Source of the DNA: Microgenomates group bacterium Gr01-1014_7
Lineage (GTDB): Bacteria > Patescibacteriota > Microgenomatia > Daviesbacterales > UBA10151
Direction: 5' to 3'
NCBI GenBank assembly: GCA_007376405.1
Contig: VMGD01000007.1
Span: forward strand, 1 to 53,156
Length of the DNA: 53,156 nucleotides
In this document: positions 30,648-52,796 of the stretch, piece by piece
Layout: each line of letters opens with the position of its first letter
Numbering within the stretch: position 1 is the stretch's first letter
The notes under the pieces: model-generated
What the model was told of the DNA's origin: nothing
Database searches by the model: none
What the model saw: the letters and a program-made list of their open reading frames with translations, nothing else
Made by a program: the position numbers and the translations under genes

Positions 30648-32717
30648 CTAATCCGGCATAACTTGCGCCGAAATCTTTTGTAATTGTGCCCGCAAGTTAG
30701 GATATTTGTCAAGCTCCAGGTTATCAATTAGTAAATCCCGGGCTGCTTGTCTGGTCTTTTCAATCAGAGGTAAATCCGAAAGCCTGGCTATTTTAAATTC
30801 AAACCTGCCATGCTGAGCTGTAGAAAATATTGTCCCAGAGCCCCTGATTTTTAGATCCAGTTCTGCTAATTTTAGTCCGTCAAAAGTTGTTTCCAGATAT
30901 TTTAAGCGTTTGCTGTCCTCAACTGAAGAGTGAGTGGTATAAAGCAGGCAAAAAGACTCTTTGCTTCCCCTGCCGATTCGTCCACGCAGCTGGTGGAGTT
31001 GTGCTAAACCATATCTTTCTGCCCCTTCAATTACCATAATAGTAGCATTGGCAATATCCATTCCCACTTCAACCACCGAAGTTGACACTAAAATCTGTAT
31101 TTTATTTGAGCGGAAGTCACCTATGATCTGCTCTTTTTCTTTGGCCTTCATTCTGCCGTGTAAAAGACCCAGATTAAATCTTGGAAATATTTTCTTTAAA
31201 TTCTCGAATTCTTTTTTGGCAGCACGCACCGATACTAAAGTTTCCGATTCTTCAATCAGAGGAGTAATTATGTAAGCTTGCTCCCCTGTCAGGACGTGCT
31301 TGGCAATAAAGCCGTAGCTGTCTTTTCTTTTTTGCTCAGGCACAACATAAGTCTTTATCTTAAGTCTACCCTTTGGCATTTCATCAATTATTGATAAATC
31401 CAAATCTCCATAAACGGTGAGAGCAACAGTTCTGGGGATGGGAGTGGCGGTCATGGTTAAAAAGTGAGGGGCAGGGCCCGCCTGTCGGACGGGTAAACCT
31501 TTTTGGCGAAGTTTTGTGCGCTGCGCTACACCAAAACGGTGTTGCTCGTCTATTATAACAAGTCCCACATTTTTGGCTGCCAGTTTATCCGATAAAAGAG
31601 CATGAGTGCCAATAATAACAGAGGGTTTAGGGTTTAGGGTGTAGGGTTTAGTAAATTTTCTGCTCCCTGTATAAATCCCGACCGTAATTCCAAATGGTTC
31701 TAACAGTCCGGATACTGTCTCAAAATGTTGCCAGGCAAGAATTTCTGTCGGGGCCATGAAAAGTGAACTGTAGCCATTAAGATGGGCCAGATATATAAAT
31801 AACGCCGCAACTACGGTTTTGCCCGATCCCACCTCTCCCTGCAAAAGTCTGTTCATTGGGTATTTTCTTTTAATATCGCTTGTGATCTCAGTGATTACCT
31901 TAATTTGAGCAGAGGTAAGCTTAAATGGTAAGCTGCTGATAAATCTATCAAGGTCTTTTTTTTCTACTTTCCATGCTTTGGTAATTGGTTTTTCCTGCCA
32001 GCTCAAACGGGTTTTTTGAGTGGCCAAAGAAACATAAAAAAGTTCATCAAAGCCCAGTCTTTCCCGGGCTTTGTCTATCTCATCAGTATCTTTGGGAAAG
32101 TGAATTTTTGCAAGAGCATCTTTTAGGATAAGCATATTATCCCGGATTTTATCCGGCAAGGGGTCTTGAAGTTTATTCAATATAACAGGCAAATATTTAT
32201 CTATTTTTGTCCGCAGCCATTTGGAAGCAACCCCCGAGGTCTCGGAATAAACAGGAACCAGTCTGCCGGTATGAAGGTGTGAAGCTAATCCACCCTCCGG
32301 GTGGTCTAGGTTGGCACCTACTCTTTCCCATTGGGGAACCATGATTGACAGTTTGTTTTTATATTTTGCCAATTTCCCGGAAATTTGCAGTTTATCCCCT
32401 GCTTTGATGCTTTTAATAAGATATGACTGATTAAACCAGGTCAGCATTATCGGCGAGGTGCCGTCATTAAAAATGGCCTGGGTTAAAACTCTACCATAGC
32501 GGGTATAAATATTTTTAATAGACCAGATTTCACCCTGCAGGGTGACAACCTCCCCTATTTGAGTTTCATCTGCCGGTTTGATAACAGAATAATCATCATA
32601 TCTGAAAGGAAAATGGAAAATTAAATCCTCAAGAGTAAACAGCTCCAGCTTCTCCAGCCTTTTGCCCATAAAAAAACCTATGCCGGGCAAACTGGAAAGC
32701 GGTGTCTCTAGATCCAT
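30648..32717 (-). CDS. recG: ATP-dependent DNA helicase RecG
   Basis: 689 residues, normal for RecG. N-terminal wedge with LPGIGFFMGKRLEKL and an OB fold (VVTLQGEIWSIKN), then the helicase core: RLLQGEVGSGKTVVAALF (Walker A), IIDEQHRFGVAQRTKL (DEQH box), MTATPIPRT, LLHGRMKAKEKEQI, STSVVEVGMDIANA, QLHQLRGRIGRG and a TRG-like end. It reverses stalled replication forks. At least three repeat-derived pieces are inserted in frame: DHPEGG (wedge), TLNPKPS (helicase domain 1) and LPVRQAG just before MTATP. The gene starts leaderlessly from a TATAAT 6 nt upstream. Confidence 0.96.
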   Translation of the reverse strand: MDLETPLSSLPGIGFFMGKRLEKLELFTLEDLIFHFPFRYDDYSVIKPADETQIGEVVTLQGEIWSIKNIYTRYGRVLTQAIFNDGTSPIMLTWFNQSYLIKSIKAGDKLQISGKLAKYKNKLSIMVPQWERVGANLDHPEGGLASHLHTGRLVPVYSETSGVASKWLRTKIDKYLPVILNKLQDPLPDKIRDNMLILKDALAKIHFPKDTDEIDKARERLGFDELFYVSLATQKTRLSWQEKPITKAWKVEKKDLDRFISSLPFKLTSAQIKVITEITSDIKRKYPMNRLLQGEVGSGKTVVAALFIYLAHLNGYSSLFMAPTEILAWQHFETVSGLLEPFGITVGIYTGSRKFTKPYTLNPKPSVIIGTHALLSDKLAAKNVGLVIIDEQHRFGVAQRTKLRQKGLPVRQAGPAPHFLTMTATPIPRTVALTVYGDLDLSIIDEMPKGRLKIKTYVVPEQKRKDSYGFIAKHVLTGEQAYIITPLIEESETLVSVRAAKKEFENLKKIFPRFNLGLLHGRMKAKEKEQIIGDFRSNKIQILVSTSVVEVGMDIANATIMVIEGAERYGLAQLHQLRGRIGRGSKESFCLLYTTHSSVEDSKRLKYLETTFDGLKLAELDLKIRGSGTIFSTAQHGRFEFKIARLSDLPLIEKTRQAARDLLIDNLELDKYPNLRAQLQKISAQVMPD
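31471..31497. repeat. GC-rich repeat inside recG (LPVRQAG)
   Basis: CCCGCCTGTCGGACGGG with partial dyad symmetry, read on the minus strand as LPVRQAGPA, only a few residues before helicase motif III (MTATP). In frame; the core motif next to it is intact. Confidence 0.6.
31622..31652. repeat. telomere-like GGGTTTA tandem repeat inside recG
   Basis: Four units: GGGTTTA, GGGTTTA, GGGTGTA, GGGTTTA. On the minus strand they encode KPYTLNPKPS, between helicase motifs Ia and Ib. Same family as the trmD repeat at 27844-27876. Confidence 0.8.
32290..32304. repeat. small palindrome inside recG (DHPEGG)
   Basis: CCACCC-TCC-GGGTGG, a 6-bp perfect stem with a 3-nt loop, read in frame as DHPEGG in the N-terminal part of RecG. 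Confidence 0.5.
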
Positions 32718-34198: not shown

Positions 34199-35269
34199 TT
34201 AAGGAGTGCGCCTTGCTCTATACTCACTTATAACTTGTGCTGTTGCTTGTTTTTCTGACATGCCTTTCATCTTAACTAGAGCCTCAATCTCTCCTGCTAA
34301 ATGAGCTTTAATTGCATCGTCCGTAAATTCTTGGGGGTTAACTTCAGATTGAGTAGCTGGTGGTTTCGGTCTACGTCTAAAAGGAATGGATATTCTGAGT
34401 CCTCTTTTGGATGGCGGTTCTATTGGTGTTGTAAGTTCTCCCGAGGCTCTCATTGCTTGAACAGTTTCTTCAAAGGCGCGGCGGCTTTCCCCAGCTCTAT
34501 CTAGTGGGTCTGCAACATCTACATTCCCACTTTCCAAGTGGGAAGCTGGTTCTTCTGGTACAGGGGATTGGGGTCTTTCACGGATTGCTTCATCCAGAAT
34601 CCGCTGGCCCTCTATTGTATCTTCTCTTACTTGTTCTCTGGCAGCTGCAGCTTTTTGGTCAATAACTTCCTCTGCGGAAGTCGGAGATTCTGCAGCTGTA
34701 GGTTCAGCAGGAGGTGGTTGCGGAGGAGCTTCTGTAGGTTCCTCAGTGGACTGGATACCTGCAATCCTGGCAAGTTCCGCTGGTGAAAGAGAGGGAATTG
34801 TAGGAACAGGCACAATAGCATGAGGGTCAGGTAAAACTGTAGTTTGATATACATTCCCACCCGCTTCGCCAGCCTTTGGTGTGATTTCACTAGGCGAGCT
34901 TTCCAAGTGGGAAGCTGGTTCTTCACCAGGGTGTGCAGATTCGACTGGAATCTTGGTTGCTAAAAAGTCTAAACGAGCAGCTACTACCGGAGATTCATCA
35001 AGTCCTAAAATTCTGGCTCTTGAGAGATCCTCTTCCAGCAAATTAAGATCATATTTTGTAATAATTCCTACCTCGTGCCTTGATATGGCATCAAATAAGC
35101 CTATAACAACCTCTTCCCTTCTTCCAATCTGCCTGATTTGAGCTAAATTTGGGTCATTCGGGCCGATCTGGTCCAAAAGACTTAAAAATGTTGTTACATT
35201 TCTTGGCTTTGCCAAATCCAGAGATTGCATTTTATTTAACACTGCTTCTGAGTCAGGATTTTGTACCAT
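34199..35269 (-). CDS. Pro/Glu/Ala-rich protein of unknown function with in-frame repeats
   Basis: 356 residues from the ATG at 35269. I choose it over the upstream ATG at 35287 because TGGTAAAAT, an extended -10 that would include the upper ATG, ends 8 nt before it. A helical N-terminal part of about 110 residues (NKMQSLDLAKPRNVTTFLSL to ARLDFLATKIP) is followed by a long low-complexity region (EEPTEAPPQPPPAEPT) and a basic segment (KRGLRISIPFRRRPK), then a C-terminal UBA-like helical stretch (MKGMSEKQATAQVISEYRAR). EEPASHLES occurs twice from a DNA repeat. No membrane segment or enzyme motif. Unrecognised; back to back with the 1038-residue gene. Confidence 0.6.
   Translation of the reverse strand: MVQNPDSEAVLNKMQSLDLAKPRNVTTFLSLLDQIGPNDPNLAQIRQIGRREEVVIGLFDAISRHEVGIITKYDLNLLEEDLSRARILGLDESPVVAARLDFLATKIPVESAHPGEEPASHLESSPSEITPKAGEAGGNVYQTTVLPDPHAIVPVPTIPSLSPAELARIAGIQSTEEPTEAPPQPPPAEPTAAESPTSAEEVIDQKAAAAREQVREDTIEGQRILDEAIRERPQSPVPEEPASHLESGNVDVADPLDRAGESRRAFEETVQAMRASGELTTPIEPPSKRGLRISIPFRRRPKPPATQSEVNPQEFTDDAIKAHLAGEIEALVKMKGMSEKQATAQVISEYRARRTP
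34524..34555. repeat. palindromic repeat, simple copy (EEPASHLES)
   Basis: TTCCCACTT-TCC-AAGTGGGAA is a perfect 9-bp stem (34524-34544), followed by GCTGGTTCTTC. On the minus strand it encodes EEPASHLES. The core is repeated at 34850-34924. Confidence 0.8.
34850..34924. repeat. second copy of the same repeat, interrupted by another element
   Basis: Starts with TACATTCCCAC and ends with CTTTCCAAGTGGGAAGCTGG plus TTCTTC, exactly the two halves of the copy at 34520-34555. Between them lie 39 extra bases (34861-34899) that themselves have a dyad (TTCGCC with GGCGAG, GTG with CAC). They encode 13 extra residues (SPSEITPKAGEAG) in frame. This is one repeat inserted in another. Confidence 0.8.
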
Positions 35270-35277
35270 ATATGATA

Positions 35278-35286
35278 ATTTTACCA
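35278..35286 (-). promoter_or_regulatory. extended -10 of the 34199-35269 gene
   Basis: Minus strand TGGTAAAAT, ending 8 nt before the ATG at 35269. It lies back to back with the plus-strand promoter at 35292. Confidence 0.4.
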
Positions 35287-35291
35287 TTTTG

Positions 35292-50544: not shown

Positions 50545-52796
<2,252 letters not shown>

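Follow-up and report, generated by a model that had tools for sequence, protein, structure and literature searches.

One short palindromic element interrupted in frame by another in a gene of a groundwater Microgenomates bacterium

REPs, among them the GTAG REPs and those of REPtrons, are dispersed hairpins of 20-40 nt, specific to groups of species and mainly extragenic, and are associated with RAYTs, transposases of the Y1/HUH type whose genes form a clade and are bordered by this hairpin (PMC3733652, PMC2817692). Earlier work describes REPs that lie within genes, dimers of REPs nested in other palindromes, and REPs that adjoin RAYT genes (PMC3733652), and insertion sequences such as ISPpu9 are known to insert into REPs (PMC3733652, PMC8450116). 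Palindromes that lie in frame within proteins are known from Rickettsia, where the Rickettsia palindromic elements (RPE-1 to RPE-7) occur in frame in many protein genes and are absent from some orthologues (PMC3767692, PMC10969869). The RPEs measure about 100-150 bp (PMC3767692), and no transposase is named for them in PMC3767692 or PMC10969869. In the literature that we searched, we found no description of in-frame protein palindromes in Patescibacteria.

Here we analyze a stretch of 53,156 nucleotides (the window), positions 1 to 53,156 of contig VMGD01000007.1 of Microgenomates group bacterium Gr01-1014_7, an uncultured groundwater bacterium. An open reading frame on its minus strand (34199-35287) encodes an orphan protein of 362 residues, with no match in a Pfam search and no homologue in 44 other genomes of the same family. 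The low-complexity middle part of this protein contains two copies of a palindromic element, E1. The copy at 34520-34555 (36 nt with shared flanks, TACATTCCCACTTTCCAAGTGGGAAGCTGGTTCTTC) is uninterrupted, its core palindrome occupying 34524-34544. In the copy at 34850-34924 (75 nt) the same bases, identical at 36 of 36 positions, are split 11+25, the left part, TACATTCCCAC (34850-34860), being separated from the right part, TTTCCAAGTGGGAAGCTGGTTCTTC (34900-34924), by exactly 39 bases, CCGCTTCGCCAGCCTTTGGTGTGATTTCACTAGGCGAGC (34861-34899). Its family ends, and empty sites elsewhere, identify this insert as a long form of a second family, E2. Translated from the minus strand, the short copy reads EEPASHLES|GNV and the long copy EEPASHLES|SPSEITPKAGEAG|GNV, with 13 extra residues in the same frame, and the predicted peptide across the nested insert contains ASHLESSPSEITPK. 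The position of the insert slides by one base, the E2 unit CTCGCC...GCGGG, read on the minus strand, occupying 34860-34898. Unlike in a MITE, no target-site duplication was found at the insert beyond this one-base ambiguity. Because the identity of the two E1 copies includes gene-specific flank outside E1, it suggests that they arose by local duplication. An earlier, sequence-only reading of this locus had described the shared halves, the exact 39-base insert and the preserved frame, all of which the alignment and the translation bear out. Its statement that the 39 bases form their own dyad fares poorly, with a fold of z -1.1 that 30 of 200 shuffles equal, and we count the inner element as distinct because of its family relatives and not because of its fold.

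The E1 core, TTCCCACTTtccAAGTGGGAA, folds into a hairpin with a 3-nt loop and a perfect stem of 9 bp (fold z -4.5), and this palindrome is far above chance (0 of 100 shuffles were its equal). The pattern TTCCCAC-N{3,33}-GTGGGAA, searched with the reversed pattern as control, is present in 30 of 45 genomes of the same family (Daviesbacteria and other Microgenomates) at 0-15 copies per genome, the control being near zero, and exact variants come from Daviesbacteria, Levybacteria, Shapirobacteria and related Microgenomates. In 50 of the 60 distinct sites examined the spacer is 7 nt (TTCCCAC-N7-GTGGGAA). Outside the core about AAATYTAGC is common to each side, the two bases adjacent to the stem are mostly unpaired, and the whole element with its flanks measures ~24-39 nt. 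The window genome has only two full E1 sites and the interrupted one. One exact variant stands on a contig labelled as an Acidobacteria MAG (L188, JAIVJC010000053.1), and could reflect either transfer or a misbinned contig.

Most E1 copies are found inside genes, 36 of 48 distinct sites lying within ORFs of at least 120 codons, and 25 of these 36 share a single phase, which reads (L)ASHLxSGNV(D) (binomial p ~1e-5). The core is open in all frames seen and usually encodes this polar loop, which would account for its being tolerated there. In relatives E1 is in frame in holB, alr, murC, fmt and pgk, at sites that are empty in orthologues; relative to the empty orthologues it adds 8 residues in alr, 8 in holB, 6 in murC and 7 or 8 in pgk, and several of these empty sites were seen against the window genome's own orthologues. 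At the pgk site many other orthologues are equal in length without the palindrome, with no net change, so that E1 in a gene does not always mean added residues. In pgk of L015 and L081, E1 occupies the same site in two genomes, and the LESGKL of many orthologues resembles half of E1.

Like the REPs, E1 is a short dispersed hairpin restricted to a group of species and flanks a clade of Y1/HUH transposase genes, in six relatives and not in the window genome. When Y1_Tnp profile matches were compared by hand with E1 sites, E1 was found adjoining RAYT-type genes in G013, G025, G026, G030, G033 and G038 among the matches listed, and at least 13 E1 sites lie near a RAYT against ~0.55 expected, by hand count among these same matches. 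Six E1-flanked RAYTs, five from genomes of the family and one from a contig of Shapirobacteria, fall into a single clade (91/95), to which the E1-adjacent RAYT of G038 does not belong. The E1-flanked RAYTs L011, L020, L072, L175, L202 and L203 furthermore carry an internal E1 at the same place of their coding sequence, HRN-FPLPxWEGK-YPYSSY. This built-in copy distinguishes E1 from the described REPs, as do its low copy number and its mainly intragenic location, and no constant GTAG or CGTC tag was found at the foot of the hairpin (in 150 flanks: AGC 49, ACG 25, GTA 12, ACC 11 and others). Lacking both the tag and the extragenic preference, E1 is consequently regarded as a REP-like, RAYT-linked element and not as a GTAG REP. 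The window genome has three RAYTs among the Y1_Tnp matches listed, none of them in the E1-flanked clade, and its PF01797 matches were for this reason rejected as mobilisers of E1. With the cognate RAYT absent, the few E1 copies of this genome would now be inert and are probably relics.

As for E2, no further copy of the exact 39-mer was found in its own genome, in the 45 genomes of the family or in the GTDB contigs; the interior varies, and searches with the whole 39-mer consequently found nothing. The sequence-only reading had proposed to look for the element alone, and a pattern made of its ends only (CCGCTTCGCC-N{2,32}-GGCGAG) finds the family by itself in 28 of the 45 genomes, at ~120 sites among the matches listed, with 1 match for the control. 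E2 units have the minus-strand ends CTCGCC...GCGGG and measure 21-39 nt in steps of three. A further copy in the window genome (L204, G000:C25:86247-86272), in a PQQ-type sugar dehydrogenase, is a clean insert of 9 residues relative to PDB 3a9g and 2ism, as is the E2 insert in the Xaa-Pro peptidase of a relative, of exactly 9 residues against 3q6d, while in L111 the 20-nt form of the pattern (a 21-nt unit) corresponds to 7 residues against the empty site. The L204 insert lies within the conserved FGP-D-LYITTGD motif of the dehydrogenase, and the gene is apparently unbroken. Judged from these empty sites the unit is one base longer than the pattern, and the window copy accordingly measures 39 nt. 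For E2, exact ends of the kind claimed are given by gaps of 9 residues for the 27-nt form and 7 for the 21-nt form, and the clean E2 inserts at unrelated sites support insertion as units. Empty sites were found for both E1 and E2 in orthologues elsewhere, the host gene itself having none.

Another 39-nt form of E2 (G013:C9) reads GSPREVPPKAGEAG and that of the window SSPSEITPKAGEAG; the two agree at 31 of 38 bases, and at 15 of 22 in the interior, which none of 20000 shuffles matched. The inner hairpin is CCCGCC-GAA-GGCGGG in G013:C9 against CACACC-AAA-GGCTGG in the window, and it is this alteration that weakens the fold of the window insert. Given the divergent interior and the lack of an exact second copy, the 39-mer may be chimaeric, or may have decayed before or after insertion. 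All 43 coding E2 units have a length divisible by three, which selection explains; 27 of the 29 non-coding units do so too, which selection does not explain. Many of the non-coding copies are one 30-nt form within a larger TCATTCCCGC...GCGGGAAT palindrome; this composite, seen in L224, L228, L231, L232, L234-L236 and L239, is itself repeated, with many copies in G025. Among the Y1_Tnp matches listed, no E2 was seen by eye within ~1 kb of a RAYT gene. In their behaviour E1 and E2 resemble RPEs of very small size, the units being 21-39 nt long here, in a different phylum, and E1 having a candidate RAYT.

Interrupted E1 copies were also found in relatives. In three of them E1 is interrupted in frame, by 42 nt in L197, 21 nt in L011 (L011:2534) and 36 nt in L198, and the break falls where it does in the window, which in the 21-nt core is at 15|16 and can slide by one base, the match of L198 requiring one substitution beside the junction. 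A fourth interrupted copy (G013:C13) carries its insert in the loop, and a third palindrome family, E3 (CCTGCC..GGCAGG), interrupts E1 in relatives. The L197 copy lies in holB, and its insert, like that of the window, falls at S|GN; the same holB site is empty in L010, L009 and L170, and holds E1 alone in L157, L016, L012 and L007. This series of empty site, E1, and E1 plus inner element agrees with the order of events that the sequence-only reading had proposed, with E1 first, and holB shows that order in separate states. As when insertion sequences enter REPs, a palindromic repeat is the landing site of another mobile element, but the incomer here is a non-coding palindrome of 21-42 nt and the frame of the host is kept. 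Long-spacer matches to the E1 pattern in G010, G022, G023, G037 and G038 were judged to be chance, being ordinary coding sequence with no E1-like flanks (control 7). Two other places in the window resemble such elements. In recG (31473-31499, minus strand) the peptide GLPVRQAGPAP recalls the E3 family, and at 50833-50853 a perfect hairpin with a 9-bp stem and 3-nt loop, CTCCCAGGCgtcGCCTGGGAG, has E1-like flanks (ttagc / cgtagt) and lies in the reading frame of what looks like ATP synthase gamma; it is probably a further in-frame palindrome family.

We consider it very probable that two mobile palindrome families, both of very short elements, met in one gene and that E2 inserted into E1. E1 would be a REP-like element spread in this Microgenomates lineage by a dedicated RAYT, an IS200-like HUH transposase, and the two near-identical copies in the host linker would most likely derive from one insertion and a local duplication. 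E2, presumably moved by an enzyme acting in trans, would later have entered one of them after base 15 (or base 14), adding 13 codons and keeping the frame, and in-frame survivors would be seen only because selection removes the rest. Identical 36-nt copies fit the opposite direction too, in which both copies once held the 39 bases and the one at 34520 lost them precisely, and the host gene, having no orthologue in the family, provides neither a directly observable empty site nor a means to polarise the change. However, E1 free of insert is the norm at dozens of unrelated sites and the copy at 34520 fits that family perfectly, E2 is found alone elsewhere with empty sites, and the holB series runs from empty to E1 to E1 plus insert; we therefore hold such a deletion to be very unlikely. 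The sequence-only reading would have been abandoned by its author if the 39-base element had no other copy and the uninterrupted copy were explained by deletion. The first holds for the exact 39-mer, but the E2 family is present, and the uninterrupted copy is not taken for a deletion product, since a 7-nt spacer is the rule in the E1 family. Its interpretation was largely right.

Mobility might also be dispensed with altogether, slippage, local duplication and chance palindromes in a Pro/Glu-rich low-complexity linker producing the same picture. The repetitive, orphan and probably disordered region in which the elements lie suits this explanation, as does the extra flank common to the two E1 copies, which fits local duplication. 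We nevertheless give it hardly any credence, since the same palindrome is found in conserved enzymes of other genomes at sites that are empty in orthologues, and the terminal sequences of the inner element turn up at ~120 sites among the matches listed; what stays plausible of this explanation is no more than that E1 was duplicated locally. A template switch or a homologous exchange with another E2-bearing locus, in place of transposition of a unit, is improbable to a lesser degree. It would be in keeping with the absence of a transposase linked to E2 among the Y1_Tnp matches listed, with pgk, which suggests replacement without change of length, and with the variation of E2 lengths by threes, which a single transposing unit does not predict. 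Clean inserts of 7 and 9 residues with constant ends at unrelated sites argue for insertion of E2 as a unit and against such an exchange, and so does the use of the same E1 junction by unrelated inserts.

Tentatively, and with more doubt than confidence, we suggest that in this lineage several families of 21-42 nt palindromes together supply proteins with mobile in-frame insertions, that one of these families has a transposase of its own, that unit lengths go by threes even outside genes, that palindromes are preferred landing sites for further palindromes, and that proteins grow by stacked insertions. In-frame protein palindromes have so far been a curiosity of Rickettsia. A similar phenomenon is now found in bacteria of the Candidate Phyla Radiation, with shorter units, a transposase clade linked to one of the families, and orthologous sites that keep the successive steps of nesting. 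This opens both the succession of events and the enzyme responsible for palindromes inserted in proteins to direct tests.
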